39,978 nucleotides of DNA, from positions 1-39,978 of IMG/VR virus record IMGVR_UViG_3300032331_001137. One strand, written 5' to 3'. Below, in pieces: positions 10,068 to 37,813 of the stretch. Both the position numbers and the translations under genes were made by a program. Positions within the stretch are counted from its first letter, which is position 1, and each line of letters opens with the position of its first letter. The notes under the pieces are model-generated. The model was not told the origin of the DNA and ran no database searches. It worked only from the letters and a program-made list of their open reading frames with translations. Source of the DNA: a virus.

Positions 10068-10292
10068 TCAGTCGGAATGTAACACATCCAATTCAATTCT
10101 CCAAAACCTAACTCCGTAAAAACCCTTATCTATGCAAACCCTGTGGGTCAGGCGGATCCCCCGCCTGGTAGCGGCTTTACGCACCGCCCTAGCTAACTGG
10201 GTTGTCTGTATTGCAGGGATAAAGAAAGAAGCGCCTGGGGTTAGCAGGTGCCACTCAATATGAACTTCCGCCCCCTCATTCTTTATTTCCAT
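10068..10292 (-). CDS. Small basic protein downstream of the primase-helicase, unknown function
   Basis: 74 residues from the ATG at 10292, which lies inside the last codons of the primase gene (17-nt overlap), so it is probably translationally coupled. The frame extends 8 codons further upstream, but that lengthens the overlap to 41 nt. The C-terminal half (ARAVRKAATRRGIRL, then GFYGVRFWRIE) is basic and could be a small nucleic-acid-binding unit. No family function is recognised. It is the last gene before the terminator at 9999-10025. Confidence 0.65.
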   Translation of the reverse strand: MEIKNEGAEVHIEWHLLTPGASFFIPAIQTTQLARAVRKAATRRGIRLTHRVCIDKGFYGVRFWRIELDVLHSD

Positions 10293-13098
10293 CAGGCATG
10301 AACTCCTGCATATCAAAGCCGTCTATCTTGCGGGTATCGAGCACCATAGTATTCACCGCGGGAGTGTTTAGTTTAGTACCACGGGCTAGACGTTTCTTAA
10401 TACCAAGTTGTGCAACGCCATCCTTTTCAAGCGCCTCACTAATTGACTTGTAAGAAGTCTGGTGCTTTGTACACCAGTCGCGAAAGTGTTTGGTTGTTAG
10501 AAATAGCAAGTGGGTATCGGGCTCATAGCGCACCAACAATTCTCTGTACGGCATCTGCATCGGAGCTTGCTCCATGTTTGTGCGGCTATCCACCTCACTC
10601 TTAACCACAAGCACTGACTGATTAAACTCGTTGAGGTAGCTACCAATCTGATCCAAAGGACCGGATGAGTTTGGCTTAACGGCAGACTTCGTATTGGAGA
10701 AATACTGCACCGCCCACTGATACACAGGACCGGTCTCAATGTCATGCAAGCCAAGGCGCTTAGCGATCATGCCGCCTACGATGGCCACCGCTGCAAGTGC
10801 AGAGTAAAAGCGTTCACGCTGAGTCAAGCCGGCATCAGCATCAAACTTCGCCTGGACTTCTTTGATCTTTTCTTTGATGGCATCGAGGTGAGCCACCACA
10901 TACTGCATATAGACTTCGCCTGCTACGCCGTAGTTCTCAAACATCAAGTTGTAAAGCTCGTCAGTCTCTTCCTTGGTCATGCTTGTATCGCGGGGCACGT
11001 TGATCTCCACCACACGAGCTAACTCGCCATCGGGAAAAGTCTTCATGCTGTAGAGCACATCATGCACACTGCGGTTACCAGAAGTCCACAAGATCAACGC
11101 CCATGAGGTGTTGTTAAGACGCTCAGAGTTTGACTGAGACATCATGCGGTTACGGCCACGGCCTTGTGTACTGATGTAAGCCAAGTTACTGACTTCATCA
11201 TTGTGCATATTGGTGATCTCATCAATCGTTGCAGGCATATTCTGGATCGTACCCATGCGGTGCATCTTAGATTTAAACGTGTCCTGCTCAAGCATCATGG
11301 TCTCAGACGGGTGGCCAAAGATGCTGTTGATCATCATCTGGATCGTAGTCTTACCGGTGCCTGAGCCATCATCTGTTAAGTGGATCTGCACACCTTTAAG
11401 GTTGGTGAACTTTAAGAGCGGTGTACCAAAACCTGCAAACAGATTAAATGCACGGGCTTCCATGCCTGGACGTGCGTACCAGTTGGCCACACGCTTCCAA
11501 CTCTCTAACGTACCCTTCTTGGCGTAAGCCGGCACCAGATTAGCGGTGGATGAGGATGGTGGGCTGTAGATTGTCTCCCCCACCTTAATCTCGCGGTCTC
11601 CGACCACAAACGTGTTGTCTGCTGTCCAACCAAACTGTAGGCGGGACTTCTCTGCATTTGTCATAAGTTGTAACTCCTTTACCCAACGTGTCATATAAGC
11701 CATGATGCTGTCCATTTGTTTGTTCAATGCAGCCACGCCCTTAGACGCAATCACATCTCTTAGTTTGTCCTTAGCCAATACACTGGCCAGAGGGATCGAG
11801 AACTCACGGATGCCGTCTCTTGGTAGGTGCAGGCGCATCCAAACCATCTCACCCAACTCAGGATCTTCTAATCGCTTAACGACATATAGGTCGTGCTCGT
11901 AGACCAAAATATCTTCTGCCGGTTCATCCGAGCCTTCTTCGGAATCCCCTTTATTTGCCTTGCGGTACACGCCACCATTCCGGCCTCGGAAGTAAGGGAA
12001 TGGGTATTCTGGGATTTCAATCGTGACGTTCTGCCCCAGAGTCTCGTGCTTGATAACGACAATATTATCTTCAGCAGTTGCTTTAGCGATCTCGGAGCCA
12101 AGCTGAATGGGGGAAGAGATCTTCCCTTTGTGTGGGCATCCATCGCACCCAGTAGGATTAGTCTTTTCAAACGTGGCGCAAGTGTGTGGCCCTTTGATAA
12201 GTGCGGCCTTCTCTTCAGTGCCCGCAGGTGAGTAGCCGCCATGCTTACTTGAAAGACGGTGTATGGCCGTGTCCCTATCCTCACAGAACTGAGCGATAGA
12301 AAGACCGGATCTCCATAGAGGTTCTTCAATGGTTTGTTGGTTGACGTAAATGTGAGTAAGCTGCGCACAACCTTTTCCTTCTTTGCCCTTGATCATGATG
12401 GTGGAAAACTTAGACACACGGTTGCCTAGCAACGCCATAGTGGTCTCATCAAGCGGACGCTTGGGTGACGCGGCCAGTGCGGCCATCATATCTACACCAA
12501 CTTTGTCCTTAAATGCCGCAAACTCCACCGACTGCGACATCGACATAATTTCAACTGGGTACGGTGACTCTTCGTTCTTGAAGTTCAGCGTATCAGGTAC
12601 TCGCAAAATGCGTGCGGCATCCGCAGTAACAACAGGGTCTGCATATAGGTTGTGCGTGACGCACAGTTTCTTCAAAGATTCGGCAACGGGTTTCCAATCG
12701 TTATAGCTAATTGCTTCGTTCAAAGCCCAGTATGTATGTACACCTCGGCCAGAGTTAACGATAATGGGTTTAGACAGCCCCGTGTCTTTGCAGAACTCAC
12801 GTAGTGCGGCTATCGCTTGCGCTTGGGATTCATATTTCTTTCCTTCTCCACAGTCTAAATCCAACCAAAATGATTTGAACCACTTAGCATTCTTTGTTGT
12901 CCGGCCTTCATCCGTCTCGAACTTGGCGCATCCAAAATATGCGTCATACCCCTGTTCAACTAGATGCCCTACAAGCTCTGTAAGCTCTGGGACCGTCCTA
13001 ACAAATTCCTGCTTTGAGGTTCCCTTTTTTAATCCCACCACACAATAGATGCCTTCTGTCGGCAGTATCGTGGAGAGAAAGAGATTCCTTGAGGTCAT
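10276..13098 (-). CDS. Primase-helicase: AEP/PrimPol-like primase fused to a P-loop ATPase
   Basis: 940 residues. The N-terminal 170 or so look like an archaeo-eukaryotic primase: acidic WLDLD motif (Asp80, Asp82), SGRGVH with His121 at 116-121, and a DAARILRVPDT stretch near 160-170. A CATFEK...GCDGCPHKG cluster at about 306-325 may bind zinc. The second half has a Walker A motif DDGSGTGKTT near 572-583 and a Walker B-like PATIDEIT near 618-625, then TQGRGRNRM, resembling DUF927-type superfamily 3 helicases. The C-terminus looks like a winged helix. The protein should unwind DNA and make primers at the phage fork. The first gene of its type on this strand before the terminator, with one small gene following. 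Confidence 0.85.
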   Translation of the reverse strand: MTSRNLFLSTILPTEGIYCVVGLKKGTSKQEFVRTVPELTELVGHLVEQGYDAYFGCAKFETDEGRTTKNAKWFKSFWLDLDCGEGKKYESQAQAIAALREFCKDTGLSKPIIVNSGRGVHTYWALNEAISYNDWKPVAESLKKLCVTHNLYADPVVTADAARILRVPDTLNFKNEESPYPVEIMSMSQSVEFAAFKDKVGVDMMAALAASPKRPLDETTMALLGNRVSKFSTIMIKGKEGKGCAQLTHIYVNQQTIEEPLWRSGLSIAQFCEDRDTAIHRLSSKHGGYSPAGTEEKAALIKGPHTCATFEKTNPTGCDGCPHKGKISSPIQLGSEIAKATAEDNIVVIKHETLGQNVTIEIPEYPFPYFRGRNGGVYRKANKGDSEEGSDEPAEDILVYEHDLYVVKRLEDPELGEMVWMRLHLPRDGIREFSIPLASVLAKDKLRDVIASKGVAALNKQMDSIMAYMTRWVKELQLMTNAEKSRLQFGWTADNTFVVGDREIKVGETIYSPPSSSTANLVPAYAKKGTLESWKRVANWYARPGMEARAFNLFAGFGTPLLKFTNLKGVQIHLTDDGSGTGKTTIQMMINSIFGHPSETMMLEQDTFKSKMHRMGTIQNMPATIDEITNMHNDEVSNLAYISTQGRGRNRMMSQSNSERLNNTSWALILWTSGNRSVHDVLYSMKTFPDGELARVVEINVPRDTSMTKEETDELYNLMFENYGVAGEVYMQYVVAHLDAIKEKIKEVQAKFDADAGLTQRERFYSALAAVAIVGGMIAKRLGLHDIETGPVYQWAVQYFSNTKSAVKPNSSGPLDQIGSYLNEFNQSVLVVKSEVDSRTNMEQAPMQMPYRELLVRYEPDTHLLFLTTKHFRDWCTKHQTSYKSISEALEKDGVAQLGIKKRLARGTKLNTPAVNTMVLDTRKIDGFDMQEFMPDGNKE

Positions 13099-29620: not shown

Positions 29621-29676
29621 TTTTAACTCCTAGTAGTTGGTTTAAATTGTCAGCGGTCTTTGCCACCAACATCTTC

Positions 29677-29753: not shown

Positions 29754-29960
29754 TTATTCCCAATCGGTGTCGGCAGAGGTTGTAGCGGGTTGTACTGCTT
29801 TGCCCTGTGTTGTAGTCAGGTAGCCGGCACGTCTCAAGCCGTCTCGGAGGTATCTACGTATGACGTGCGATGGCGTTGTATCCTCTTGTGCTACGGCTAG
29901 TTGTATCGCGTTGTATGTCTCTGTATCGAAACGTACGCTTAGGTTTTGTGTCTTTTGCAT
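29754..29960 (-). CDS. Ribbon-helix-helix DNA-binding protein
   Basis: 68 residues from ATG 29960 (GAGG upstream). QNLSVRFDTETYNAIQLAV followed by TPSHVIRRYLRDGLRR is a clear Arc/MetJ-type ribbon-helix-helix: strand LSVRF for DNA contact, then two helices. The C-terminus is a polar tail. Such proteins are dimeric repressors; its own promoter carries a near-perfect palindrome, so autoregulation is likely. Regulation of the related promoters at 14.8, 29.3, 29.7 and 31.2 kb is a reasonable guess. Confidence 0.8.
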   Translation of the reverse strand: MQKTQNLSVRFDTETYNAIQLAVAQEDTTPSHVIRRYLRDGLRRAGYLTTTQGKAVQPATTSADTDWE

Positions 29961-29988
29961 TGCAATGTCCTCGTTTGTTGAAAATGTC

Positions 29989-30019
29989 ATTATATGTCAA
30001 CTTAACACAATGTGTCAAG
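29989..30019 (-). promoter_or_regulatory. Promoter and palindromic operator of the RHH gene
   Basis: Minus strand: TTGACA (30018-30013), 18-base spacer, perfect TATAAT (29994-29989). The -35 and part of the spacer are in CTTAACACAATGTGTCAAG (30001-30019), a 19-bp palindrome with one mismatched pair, so a dimeric repressor bound here would block polymerase. Confidence 0.75.
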
Positions 30020-30056
30020 ATGTTTACGATGTATTGTTGATTGTTCCAAAAATGGG

Positions 30057-30345
30057 GTAAAGTTCTGGAAATTTAAAGTGACGTAACTTTATGAAAGCTA
30101 GCATCCATGCGGGTTGTGGCGGTAAAGTTCCAAAGTTCTAAAGTTCTGAGCCTTTTCAGTCTGGGCAAAAATAGCCGTGTAAACAAAGACATTGTAACAC
30201 ATCTAAATACATAAAGTAAAATAATTTGCCGTTCATTCTTTTATTTATTAAGTAACTTTGTAACTTTATATATATATATACCCGTAAGTGCTTGATTTCA
30301 TTAGCTTTTATAAAGTTCTGCTTACGTGGAACTTACTGGAACGAA
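30057..30345. other. Iteron-like, AT-rich region; candidate replication origin
   Basis: Within this non-coding stretch AAAGTTC(T) occurs at 30059, 30124, 30132, 30140 and 30312, and its inverse-type GTAACTTT at 30083, 30252 and 30260. A (TA)7 run lies at 30267-30280. Clustered short direct repeats beside an AT-rich, easily melted block are typical of replication origins. The cluster also could bind a regulator. No gene is seen between the RHH promoter and the terminator at 30519. Confidence 0.5.
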
Positions 30346-30382: not shown

Positions 30383-30510
30383 CTCACCGGACGCAATAGA
30401 AAACTATCATCAATTGCGGATTACTCCGCGGAATCAATTCACCGGATGCCTCGCCTGAGAGCTCACCGGACGCAATAGAAAACTATCATCAAGCCCGCGG
30501 GTGAGCGGGC
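30383..30510. repeat. First pair of 31-bp repeats, each followed by a hairpin
   Basis: Two identical 31-bp copies at 30383-30413 and 30462-30492 (start CTCACCGGACGC, internal ATAGAAAACTAT, end CATCAA). Each is followed at once by a 6-bp stem with a 6-base loop: TTGCGG/CCGCGG (30414-30431, two G-T pairs) and GCCCGC/GCGGGC (30493-30510). Stem sequences differ while pairing is kept. A partial copy, TTCACCGGATGC, lies at about 30438-30449. Confidence 0.8.
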
Positions 30511-30518
30511 GATGGGCA

Positions 30519-30542
30519 ACAAAAAACCCGCCTGAGCGGGTT
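30519..30542 (-). terminator. Rho-independent terminator of the Gp88-like gene
   Basis: AACCCGC (30525-30531) pairs with GCGGGTT (30536-30542) around a 4-base loop; the A-run at 30521-30526 gives a T-run after the stem on the minus strand. It lies 4 bases beyond the TAA at 30547. Confidence 0.85.
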
Positions 30543-30546
30543 CGGT

Positions 30547-31206
30547 TTAGTGGTACGCGTATGAGACCGGTGCGCTAGTCCAACAGGTTCGGCATTCTCT
30601 ACACTCTCCGTTTTGCTTTGGTGCGTGGCACTCATTCCCGATAGGTTTTGTCGTGTGAACGTTCGAGACTGTAACCCCGCGAATGCCTTGCAAACTCTTC
30701 GGAATAATTACCGGCTTGTCGATATACATCGCGGATAAACGCACAATCAAATTGCCTGGGATAGCATCGCGCCCATGTTTATCAATAAATGCCTTAATGA
30801 TTTTATATTCGCGAGTCGGCAACCAATGCAGCGTTTTTGGCGTCAATTTTGCCACCGATACAATGTTTTCAAAATGCCAGAGACCTTGAATATCCCCGCT
30901 ATCATGCCACCGGAAATAGGGATCTAATCCAATGCTCGAGACCATCGCGGATATCCACAATGGATCTGATAATGCATCTAATCGCGCAAACTGTGCGGGT
31001 TTAATTGTGCCGGCATACTTAGCGTAATTACCCTTATTCGCGTAACATTTATTGCAAATCGATCCTTCTATTTTTGCCATCTCAAAACCGGTCATACAAG
31101 CTTCGGTCGGTAAACTGTTGGATTTGCACGGCATCTTTGTAGTTTGGGATAATCCACCATGGATAGCGTGCGCATCTGATTTGCGCATGAAAATAACTTT
31201 ATGCAT
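30547..31206 (-). CDS. Cysteine-rich Gp88-like phage protein
   Basis: 219 residues from ATG 31206 (CCGGAG upstream, 27 bases below a promoter); an earlier in-frame start at 31263 would include the promoter. Pattern: CKSN...EAC, ICNKCYANKGNYAKY, RWHDSGDIQ, a PTREYKII stretch, and a C-terminal HAPKQNGECRECRTCW cluster. Phage Gp88-like proteins share the CYA, HDSGD and threonine-arginine barrel motifs; their function is not established, and the cysteines suggest a metal or Fe-S centre. The gene is a single-gene unit with its own promoter and terminator, standing between two pairs of 31-bp repeats, so it may be an acquired cassette. Confidence 0.7.
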   Translation of the reverse strand: MHKVIFMRKSDAHAIHGGLSQTTKMPCKSNSLPTEACMTGFEMAKIEGSICNKCYANKGNYAKYAGTIKPAQFARLDALSDPLWISAMVSSIGLDPYFRWHDSGDIQGLWHFENIVSVAKLTPKTLHWLPTREYKIIKAFIDKHGRDAIPGNLIVRLSAMYIDKPVIIPKSLQGIRGVTVSNVHTTKPIGNECHAPKQNGECRECRTCWTSAPVSYAYH

Positions 31207-31232
31207 TTGATTCTCCGGTTGGTTAAAATTAC

Positions 31233-31260
31233 ATTGTATCACATTGTCATACGTTGTAAA
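31233..31260 (-). promoter_or_regulatory. Promoter of the Gp88-like gene with phased TTGT repeats
   Basis: Minus strand: TTTACA (31260-31255), 16-base spacer, TACAAT (31238-31233). TTGT occurs at 31234, 31244 and 31254 on the plus strand, the same 10-bp spacing as in the promoter at 29677-29704. Confidence 0.7.
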
Positions 31261-31349
31261 CATTTATTTTGTAGGTGAAAACCCTTAGAGGGTTCGAAGC
31301 TTCGCGCCCCTGATTCGCGTGGGGCTCGCGTGGGGATCTCACCGGTGGG

Positions 31350-31476
31350 CTCACCGGATGCAATAGAAAACTATCATCAAGCGCACAATGGCGCAAAAAC
31401 TCTCCGGAAAAACTCACCGCAGGGCTCACCGGACGCAATAGAAAACTATCATCAAGTTCGCAAAAACGCTGCGAAC
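31350..31476. repeat. Second pair of 31-bp repeats, each followed by a hairpin
   Basis: Copies at 31350-31380 (one C-to-T change) and 31425-31455 match the pair at 30.4 kb in the same orientation. Following hairpins: GCGC/GCGC with a 6-base loop (31381-31394) and GTTCGC/GCGAAC with a 9-base loop (31456-31476). Partial CTCACCG units stand 12 bp before each full copy (about 31338 and 31413). No gene is seen in 31261-31533; it also has CGCGTGGGG twice near 31316-31335. Confidence 0.8.
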
Positions 31477-31490
31477 AAAAAACAAACAGA

Positions 31491-31517
31491 AATAAAAAAG
31501 CCCCGATTTCTCGGGGC
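31491..31517 (-). terminator. Rho-independent terminator of the four-gene leader cluster
   Basis: GCCCCGA (31500-31506) pairs with TCGGGGC (31511-31517) around TTTC; the A-rich run 31491-31499 becomes a T-run on the minus strand. It follows the stop of the gene at 31534. Confidence 0.85.
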
Positions 31518-31533
31518 AAAACCTACTAGAGTT

Positions 31534-31830
31534 TTAACTTGCAATACATATTGGTGCGTTGTAGTGGCGTCGTTTGTATTCCCCAAACGTTTCGTATCCG
31601 CGGATTTTGCTTTGCTTTTCTCGGGCAATCCGGTCGCGGATCTTGGGCATTTCAATTCCCTTTTCTTTTAGCGTCTCGAAATAAGTTGACGCATCACAGT
31701 CTTCTTCGAGATATGCATAGTCTCCCTTCCAGTAACTGTAGCTACTGATCCGGTCGGCAATGTCTAGCTTGATCAATTGCTTGATACTTACCTTAAACCA
31801 TCCGTGTCCACCATCTTGAATGTAGTCCAT
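31534..31830 (-). CDS. Hypothetical protein, last of four genes with the same leader
   Basis: 98 residues from ATG 31830, directly after the shared TAAGGGGAACAAC leader. The sequence has a GGHGWFKVSIKQLIKLD start, an aromatic acidic middle (SYSYWKGDYAYLEEDCD) and a basic C-terminus (KIRDRIAREKQSKIRGYETF). No family recognised. The previous gene's TAA is the first three bases of the leader. Confidence 0.65.
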   Translation of the reverse strand: MDYIQDGGHGWFKVSIKQLIKLDIADRISSYSYWKGDYAYLEEDCDASTYFETLKEKGIEMPKIRDRIAREKQSKIRGYETFGEYKRRHYNAPICIAS

Positions 31831-31840
31831 GTTGTTCCCC

Positions 31841-32008
31841 TTAAATGTAGTTAACTTTGAGCGAGCTTTGCTCATGCTTGATCATGCCGTTGGCAAGCCA
31901 GATCTCATAGAGTGTCCGGATACTTAAACCTTCGCTCCACAGTACGTAATGAAAACCAAAGTGGATTAGGTCGCTTTTAATCTGGAAAATGTTTTTTCTA
32001 AATGTCAT
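31841..32008 (-). CDS. Small hypothetical protein with shared leader
   Basis: 55 residues from ATG 32008 (MTFRKNIFQIKSDLIHFGFH), after the shared leader. Mostly helical, aromatic; SIRTLYEIWLANGMIK could be a short HTH-like turn, but this is weak. Its TAA is used as the start of the next leader. Confidence 0.6.
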   Translation of the reverse strand: MTFRKNIFQIKSDLIHFGFHYVLWSEGLSIRTLYEIWLANGMIKHEQSSLKVNYI

Positions 32009-32721: not shown

Positions 32722-33120
32722 TATACCTACAACGTCCTACATTGTATTTGGTTTACTTATTTATCTAAGTACTTTCCCTAATACAACAGCAATGATAAAT
32801 CTCCCAGGTGAATCACTATCTATCTAATGTTTATCTAGCTTAGCTCTAGCTCTAACTATCATCGCTATCCATGGCAAGCCCCACCAACAATGCGCCACCT
32901 AGCCCGCCCCGCCACCCCCACCCCCCGAAACCACGTTTGGAGTCCCTATAGATTTATATACACTGTAATATGCACAACCAATCCCAATTTTTATAGCCCC
33001 CCCCCCCTATCTAAAAAGTTAGCGACCACTAACCACCCCAATATATAAAACACCCCCCATCACTAAATATTTTTGTGCACCCCCTACCCCTATATATTTT
33101 TTTGTAATACACTGCGCGAC
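32722..33120. other. Non-coding divergent region between early and late genes
   Basis: About 400 bases with no credible gene. The left part is AT-rich with repeated CTAGCTCTA and TATCTA units; the centre and right are strongly C-rich on the plus strand (including eleven Cs at 32997-33007) mixed with TATATA runs. Two similar blocks, CACTGTAATATGCAC (about 32960-32974) and TTTGTAATACACTGC (about 33102-33116), could be late-promoter elements. Its place beside the terminase small subunit makes it a candidate packaging site. Confidence 0.45.
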
Positions 33121-35284: not shown

Positions 35285-37813
35285 ATGGCTATTGATAAAG
35301 CACTGTACCAAGCACCCCAAGGACTTGATGCCCTGGCGGAAGAGCCAATGCTCGAGATTGAAATGGAGCCGGAAACGGAAGTCACGGAGCTAGAAGTTGA
35401 TCTAGGTCCTGTGGCACCCAATATGGACGATTCGTTTGATGATAATCTTGCCGAATATTTGGGTGAGGATGTGCTTGAGGAACTTGCCAGTGAATTGGCC
35501 AGTGACTTTGATGATGACGTTGGTAGCCGCAAAGACTGGATGCAGACTTATGTAGATGGTCTGGAACTCTTAGGAATGAAGATTGAAGAGCGCACTGAGC
35601 CCTGGGAAGGCGCTTGTGGGGTGTACCATCCACTTTTGTCTGAAGCGCTGGTTAAGTTTCAAGCTGAGACCATGATGAGCACATTCCCCGCTGCGGGACC
35701 CGTTAAGACTCAGATTATTGGTAAAGAAACACCCGAGAAAAAAGCGGCGGCTGTTCGTGTGCAAGATGACATGAACTACCAGTTAACAGACGTGATGACT
35801 GAGTTCCGTCCCGAGCACGAGCGGATGTTGTGGGGCTTGGGTCTGTCTGGTAATGCGTTCAAAAAAGTCTATTACGACCCGCACATGGAGCGTCAGATCT
35901 CTCTGTTTGTGCCGGCGGAAGATTTGGTTGTGCCCTACGGTGCCAGTAACTTAGAGACTTCTGAGCGTGTCACGCACGTGATGCGTAAGACCGAGAATGA
36001 GTTGCGCCGTCTGCAGGTCGCTGGGTTTTACCGTGATGTTGACTTAGGCGAGCCAGACAATGTGCTCGATGAAGTTGAGAAGAAGATCGCAGAGAAGATG
36101 GGCTTCAGAGCTACATCGGATAACCGCTACAAACTTCTTGAGATGAGTGTGGACTTGGACCTGCCTGGTTACGAGCACGAGGAAGATGGGGAACCCACTG
36201 GCATCAAGCTGCCATACATCGTGACGTTGGAAAAAGGTTCAAACAAAGTTTTGGCCGTACGCCGCAACTGGGAGCCCGATGATGAGACCTATCAGAAACG
36301 ACAACACTACGTACACTACGGATACGTTCCTGGATTTGGCTTCTACTATTTTGGCCTCATACACCTTATCGGGGCTTTTGCTAAGTCAGGCACTTCTCTT
36401 ATTCGTCAGCTTGTCGATGCTGGTACGCTAAGTAACTTGCCTGGTGGCTTTAAAGCTCGTGGTCTTCGTGTAAAGGGAGACGATACACCGATTGCCCCTG
36501 GAGAGTGGCGAGATGTTGACGTGCCAAGCGGTACTATTCGCGACAACTTGTTGCCCCTGCCGTACAAGGAACCTAGCCAGACGCTAATGGCGTTGCTGGG
36601 TCAAATTGTGGATGAAGGACGCCGTTTTGCCAACACCGCTGATCTGCAGATTAGCGATATGTCTGGGCAGGCTCCAGTGGGCACCACACTGGCTATCCTT
36701 GAGCGTACGCTTAAAGTGATGAGTGCTGTTCAAGCGCGCATTCACTACTCGATGAAGCAAGAGCTAAAACTCTTGAAGGGCATCATCGCTGCATATACGC
36801 CAGAGGACTACGATTACGAGCCCACTGAAGGCTCACGCAAAGCCAAGCGCAGCGACTACGACAACGTGGATGTAATACCAGTGTCAGATCCTAATGCGTC
36901 AACCATGGCGCAGAAGATTGTGCAGTATCAAGCTGTGATGCAGTTGGCTCAGCAGTCCCCACAACTCTACAATATGCCGCTCTTACATCGTCAGATGTTG
37001 GACGTGCTGGGTATCAAGGACGCACAAAAACTTGTGCCAATGGATGAGGATCAGAAACCTACAGATCCAGTGTCAGAGAACCAGAACGTACTGATGATGA
37101 AGCCAGTCAAAGCGTTTATGTACCAAGACCACCAGTCACACATCATGGTGCATATGTCTGCGATGCAAGATCCCAAGATCATGTCGCTCTTGCAGAACAA
37201 CCCAATGGCTCAGCAGTTGCAAGGCGCAATGATGGCGCACATCAATGAGCATTTAGGCTTTGAGTATCGCAAACAAATTGAGCAGCAGTTGGGTATGAGT
37301 CTGCCCCCACAAAAAGACGAGTCAGGCGAAGACATCAACATGGATCCAGAAGTCGAAGCACGTTTGGCTCCCCTGCTGGCACAAGCGGCACAACGCCTGC
37401 TGGCTGGCAATATGCAGCAGCAAGCTCAATCTAAAGCTCAACAGCAAGCCCAAGATCCGCTGGTTCAGTTGCAGCAGCAAGAGTTGCAAATCAAACAAGG
37501 CGACTTGCAGCGTAAGGTGGCCAAGGATCAGACCGATGCACAGCTCAAACAAGCGCAGTTGGGCCTGGAAGCGCAGCGTCAAAAAGTTGATGCGCTTAAA
37601 TCCGTGACGCAGATGCAGAACGACAAACAGAAAAACATGATTGCCACAGGCGTTGACGTGCTTAAACACTTGTCGGATAAACAACATGGCAAGTCTGGCC
37701 AAGAACGTGACCACGAGCATCAAGGCCAGCAACAAGAGCGCAATCATTTAAGTCAAGGACTACAAGCAGTCTTGAACAAGAAACGTGAAACACCTACAAC
37801 CAAGGAAGAGTAA
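35285..37813 (+). CDS. Portal protein
   Basis: 842 residues. An acidic, disordered N-terminus (about 1-75) precedes the portal core: KDWMQTYVDGLELLGMKIEE, PWEGACGVYHPLLSEALVKF, and a long helical stem and clip. DISFSMSGQAPVG-type segment (near 455-465) precedes the C-terminal helix region. From about 705 on the sequence is very Gln-rich (QQQAQSKAQQQAQ, LQQQELQIKQGDLQ), a coiled-coil crown. It resembles large portals of podoviruses. GAGGT precedes the ATG. Confidence 0.9.
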   Translation: MAIDKALYQAPQGLDALAEEPMLEIEMEPETEVTELEVDLGPVAPNMDDSFDDNLAEYLGEDVLEELASELASDFDDDVGSRKDWMQTYVDGLELLGMKIEERTEPWEGACGVYHPLLSEALVKFQAETMMSTFPAAGPVKTQIIGKETPEKKAAAVRVQDDMNYQLTDVMTEFRPEHERMLWGLGLSGNAFKKVYYDPHMERQISLFVPAEDLVVPYGASNLETSERVTHVMRKTENELRRLQVAGFYRDVDLGEPDNVLDEVEKKIAEKMGFRATSDNRYKLLEMSVDLDLPGYEHEEDGEPTGIKLPYIVTLEKGSNKVLAVRRNWEPDDETYQKRQHYVHYGYVPGFGFYYFGLIHLIGAFAKSGTSLIRQLVDAGTLSNLPGGFKARGLRVKGDDTPIAPGEWRDVDVPSGTIRDNLLPLPYKEPSQTLMALLGQIVDEGRRFANTADLQISDMSGQAPVGTTLAILERTLKVMSAVQARIHYSMKQELKLLKGIIAAYTPEDYDYEPTEGSRKAKRSDYDNVDVIPVSDPNASTMAQKIVQYQAVMQLAQQSPQLYNMPLLHRQMLDVLGIKDAQKLVPMDEDQKPTDPVSENQNVLMMKPVKAFMYQDHQSHIMVHMSAMQDPKIMSLLQNNPMAQQLQGAMMAHINEHLGFEYRKQIEQQLGMSLPPQKDESGEDINMDPEVEARLAPLLAQAAQRLLAGNMQQQAQSKAQQQAQDPLVQLQQQELQIKQGDLQRKVAKDQTDAQLKQAQLGLEAQRQKVDALKSVTQMQNDKQKNMIATGVDVLKHLSDKQHGKSGQERDHEHQGQQQERNHLSQGLQAVLNKKRETPTTKEE

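Follow-up and report, generated by a model that had tools for sequence, protein, structure and literature searches.

A putative replication origin with tandem repeat units and variable hairpins in a group of uncultured phages

The window analysed here, the whole stretch of 39,978 nucleotides from IMG/VR virus record IMGVR_UViG_3300032331_001137, encodes a terminase, a portal protein, a family A polymerase, an SNF2-type helicase, an exonuclease and a sigma-like protein. The locus under study contains two pairs of a repeat unit, each unit being a conserved core with a hairpin behind it, together with short iterons and an AT-rich stretch. The features of the locus are as follows.

30056–30147, no strand assigned: left iteron set, with AAAGTTC at 30059, 30124, 30132 and 30140; the cluster recurs in the same place in relatives
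30190–30300, no strand assigned: AT-rich stretch (75–83% A+T) with TATATATATATA, candidate unwinding element
30310–30345, no strand assigned: right iteron set, with AAAGTTC at 30312 and GGAAC at 30328 and 30338
30383–30413, plus strand: core of unit 1 (CTCACCGGACGCAATAGAAAACTATCATCAA)
30414–30431, plus strand: hairpin after unit 1, TTGCGGA/TCCGCGG, with two G-T pairs
30462–30492, plus strand: core of unit 2
30493–30510, plus strand: hairpin after unit 2, GCCCGC/GCGGGC
30524–30543, minus strand: terminator of the GP88-family gene, bordering units 1 and 2
30547–31263, minus strand: GP88-family gene (PF17338), between the two unit pairs
31350–31380, plus strand: core of unit 3
31381–31394, plus strand: hairpin after unit 3, GCGC/GCGC
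31425–31455, plus strand: core of unit 4
31456–31476, plus strand: hairpin after unit 4, GTTCGCA/TGCGAAC
31500–31517, minus strand: terminator of the gene at 31534–31875, bordering units 3 and 4

Units 1 and 2 adjoin the AT-rich stretch that is flanked by the iterons and lie 2–3 kb ahead of the terminase genes, and units 3 and 4 sit about 1 kb from the iterons. When the window is read in the direction of the genes, each unit pair comes after a terminator and is followed by a sigma-70-like promoter. The GC skew at fourfold sites was uninformative. A gene for a small ribbon-helix-helix-like protein (29754–29990) is located left of the iterons and is also present in relatives of the window clade. 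In the window, runs of C occur between the early and late operons (32880–33060), and a similar C-rich gap was seen in G006, G026 and G027.

The first-pass annotation had described four nearly identical 31-bp copies in the same orientation, each with its own hairpin behind it and with periods of 79 and 75 bp. All of this was confirmed in the window, shuffled versions of which give no such family. The motif AATAGAAAACTATCATCAA occurs exactly four times, starting at 30395, 30474, 31362 and 31437, always on the plus strand; no further copy was found in the window with up to three mismatches allowed, and none in the shuffles. The four 31-bp cores vary at a single C/T position, and the spacings between unit starts are 79, 888 and 75 bp.

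Scanning viral contigs with the pattern revealed the same unit in nine further contigs of uncultured phages, with one to five units per contig. These relatives are metagenomic fragments. Their unit consensus is CTCNCCGNANGC-NN-TARAAAACTATCATCA, mostly followed by AG and a stem. In every genome carrying them the units are near one locus and in a single orientation; this locus belongs to the early operon, not far from the late one, and the units are directed towards the terminase genes. Iteron clusters adjoin the units in six contigs of the clade, the AAAGTTC/GGAAC repeats cluster at this locus in the contigs that include the region, and the iteron pattern is restricted to one locus per genome (7/7 genomes). 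The box is absent from G025 and G020, and since terL was likewise found in neither contig, the locus may be missing from both. The relatives of the GP88-family gene in L057 and L058 are without the unit, which argues that this gene is not its carrier. Short tandem repeats that differ from the unit (CAAGCTT, GCGAGC) flank the GP88-family gene on both sides in Pelagibacter phage HTVC027P and phage 023Pt_psg01 (L103, 4612–5854; L104, 4914–5835).

The collections searched were annotated phages and plasmids, Rfam, IMG/VR and GTDB contigs, and any novelty of the unit is meant with respect to these. It has no match in annotated phages or plasmids by similarity search, and in Rfam no family reached the gathering score and nothing credible appeared at relaxed thresholds. 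The search of genome contigs gave one match, from which the unit is absent. An exact 16-mer scan returned 52 stretches, mostly chance matches within unrelated sequence.

The stems were assessed on 24 distinct units from the relatives. A perfect stem was defined as at least 4 Watson-Crick pairs, at least 3 of them G-C, starting 0–3 nt past ATCATCA. Such a stem is present in 14 of the 24 units, compared with 5.6% of random positions and 6.1% of shuffles (binomial p ~1e-11, indicative only because the units are related by descent and the counts are thus not independent). The claim of a conserved core followed by a varying paired stem holds for most units; the other 10 are without a perfect stem of their own, G-T pairs rescuing 3 of these, two being G001 and L164. 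Own stems are mostly absent in units of distant clades. Some of the stemless units abut a terminator hairpin instead, and units next to a terminator often have no stem of their own. When wobble pairs were allowed, G-T extended four stems and A-C three, which does not tell the folding strand apart. No conserved start trinucleotide was found 3' of the hairpin. The inner hairpin ATAG-AAAA-CTAT noted earlier is present in the window and disrupted in relatives (TAAAAAACTA, TTAG..CTAT), and is thus not conserved.

More distant phages were obtained from 80 loci fetched by terminase alignment and an iteron-pattern scan. Their layout consists of iterons, TATATATA, iterons, a pyrimidine-rich stretch, ACTATCAY and the terminator of the opposite-strand gene. 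CTATCAY is found right of the iterons in 15 of 16 distinct modules, counted by eye with near-identical ones put aside, the exception being L136. CTATCA is also the top 6-mer, in 19 of 25 rows as compared with at most 8 in shuffles; in this count the rows of the window clade were chosen by the box, and four rows are left-hand sides, which lack CTATCA. In the clade of G026 and G027, whose initiator is 54% identical, GAATAAT iterons are followed by three to four tandem units that occupy the equivalent position and point the same way, with GATACAGGTWTCA or a close variant as the core, preceded in G027 by ACGCGTCAAG. The L183 module showed no similarity to annotated phages and plasmids, and the L146 module matched only over ~40 bp (positions 412–458) in or beside its terminator, which is an annotated terminator in several records. 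Repeated palindromes of 16–18 bp peculiar to their clade, such as TTTCATACGGTATGAAA, TTATTAACTCCTGTTAA and TTTCCCACAGTGGGAA, were observed in L116, L123, L124, L129, L140 and their relatives, and are possibly operators of clade-specific regulators. Repeats similar to CATTGTATCACATTGTC are found in the window at 29676 and 31232.

A candidate for the protein acting at this locus is encoded 17 kb from the iterons (30.06–30.34 kb).

10276–13098, minus strand: predicted fusion of a primase-polymerase and a DUF927 helicase, 940 aa, candidate initiator

Its primase motifs (DLD, SGRGIH) and Walker motifs are fully or almost fully conserved in 21 relatives. The model of the N-terminal 310 residues (pLDDT 85) has as its closest solved folds the S-2L PrimPol of a cyanophage (Z 19.8) and RSF1010 RepB' (Z 14.9; 14.7 for RepB' with initiator DNA), and on this model the domain is kin to both. 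Modelling of the whole protein was poor (pLDDT 59.5), its fold search giving SaPIbov1 Rep (2e-10) and also SCCmec Cch; this is backed by a sequence match of the C-terminal half to SaPIbov1 Rep (2e-7), by which that half is a predicted helicase of the DUF927/Rep type, akin to the initiators of SaPIbov1 and SCCmec. Homologues were found in the window, G009, G012, G013, G016, G020, G025, G026 and G027. Among genomes of the three clades, all those whose contig covers the replication genes carry the initiator; the G003 contig may end ahead of the gene. The portal protein of the window (35285–37813) is 93% identical to that of G013 and the initiator (10276–13098) only 43%, which indicates that replication genes have seemingly been exchanged among phages with near-identical portals.

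The position of the units beside iterons and an AT-rich stretch indicates a DNA replication element, and from the arrangement of the sequence we consider the four-unit locus, with good confidence, to be part of the phage replication origin. By analogy with known origins, the iterons and the AT-rich stretch would form the site of opening, with the units as sites of priming or recognition. The prim-pol/DUF927 initiator helicase would bind the iterons on both sides and unwind the AT-rich stretch that they flank, and opening of the right-hand fork would expose the tandem units to its right, all on the plus strand, as single strand, each presenting a conserved sequence that leads into a hairpin of free stem sequence. 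A RepB'-like primase could then see the single-stranded tail and the foot of the hairpin, the units serving as sites for site-specific priming or initiator recognition, and a primer made there would extend leftward through the opened stretch. The polarity fits, because plus-strand sites right of the opening site are on the lagging-strand template of a rightward fork. The full scheme of an origin, an iteron-binding prim-pol/DUF927 initiator and units for priming or recognition seems to us evenly balanced between right and wrong, and a role of the units as single-stranded priming or recognition sites in the manner of RSF1010 ssi is put forward tentatively, at somewhat short of an even chance. 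Weighing against the scheme are the units without a perfect stem of their own, above all in the distant clades, the distance of units 3 and 4 from the iterons, the 17 kb that separate the iterons from the initiator gene, and the lack of a conserved start trinucleotide behind the hairpin.

The strongest rival to this reading is that the units belong to the origin as double-stranded binding sites. They would then be bound by the initiator or another protein, marking a stop of unwinding or loading the helicase, with hairpins that are incidental or act as transcription barriers. Such sites would explain why the invariant part is CTATCAY and not the stem, and why many units have no stem of their own; the stems are, however, far commoner at a fixed place than expected by chance, and we regard this reading as rather unlikely. 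That the units, upstream of the terminase genes, are part of a packaging site recognised by the small subunit of terminase appears improbable. The units do keep a constant orientation towards terS/terL at a distance of 2–3 kb, and the sequence of the predicted small subunit differs from clade to clade (~30–67% identity), but the units adjoin iterons and an AT-rich stretch, and the two pairs are 1 kb apart with genes in between.

The orientation towards late genes, the similarity of TATCAT to TATAAT and the sigma-70 region 4 protein encoded by the phage could also suggest promoters, with TATCAT recognised as a -10 by the phage sigma factor or host polymerase and the hairpin at the RNA 5' end. 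This is very improbable, because G009, in which no sigma homologue was found (its polymerase and exonuclease genes being ~220 bp apart), keeps four units, several relatives have TATCAC, other late genes are without units, and a terminator-like site on the plus strand separates unit 4 from the late genes. The first-pass annotation had suggested selection on structure, as in a mobile palindromic element or a repeated RNA signal. The latter found no support, since the units have no Rfam match, occupy the gap between terminator and promoter and adjoin the iterons and AT-rich stretch. A mobile element (REP-like, or a T4-type promoter/stem-loop cassette shuffling genes) is scarcely credible: the second pair is flanked by different genes in different relatives, but no genome has a copy outside this one locus and orientation, no transposase was identified nearby and the stem sequences are not conserved.

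If the reading as an origin is true, it defines the replication origin for a group of uncultured phages and provides a sequence signature for spotting it in new contigs. The three clades, which differ in their iterons and tags, would then form a natural series on the choice of start sites by prim-pol initiators.

In plasmid RSF1010, the ssi sites are located beside an origin made of iterons and an AT-rich region. The phage units may resemble ssiA and ssiB in that a conserved single-stranded stretch would lead into a hairpin beside such an origin, and the RSF1010 primase RepB' is among the closest folds of the predicted phage primase domain, S-2L PrimPol being closer. RepB' recognises the ssiA hairpin with a 5' single-stranded tail, reading the tail and the first G-C pair (PMC4434180). 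The phage differs in having multiple units, all on one strand and with variable stems, whereas RSF1010 has one site per strand; no GTG start site was seen in the phage units, and the phage primase is fused to a DUF927 helicase. In SaPI origins, iterons flank an AT-rich stretch. SaPIbov1 and SCCmec Cch have in common with the phage both a DUF927 helicase of the Rep type and a cluster of short repeats at one locus, in two sets with an AT-rich stretch between them. Iteron binding is described for SaPI Rep, and the DUF927 protein Cch is a relative of SaPIbov1 Rep (PMC7581432). SaPI origins adjoin rep, directly downstream of the gene, whereas the candidate phage origin is far from its initiator gene and adds tandem units with hairpins. 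The pRN1 protein ORF904 is, like the phage protein, a prim-pol/helicase with a structured origin of poorly conserved stem, and replication of pRN1 needs a stem-loop (PMC4234260); this origin is a single 100-bp stem-loop right after the rep gene, without such a layout of iterons and AT-rich DNA. The PrimPol of phage NrS-1 is likewise a prim-pol and starts at a defined motif (PMC8718748), the template motif being TTTGGTTA or GTG, with no hairpin reported there. Compared with these systems, the phage origin may, still more tentatively than the likeness to RSF1010, combine several initiation sites on one strand, each a conserved tag with a free hairpin, that would be read by a fused RepB'-like prim-pol/DUF927 self-loading helicase, the tag varying between initiator clades.
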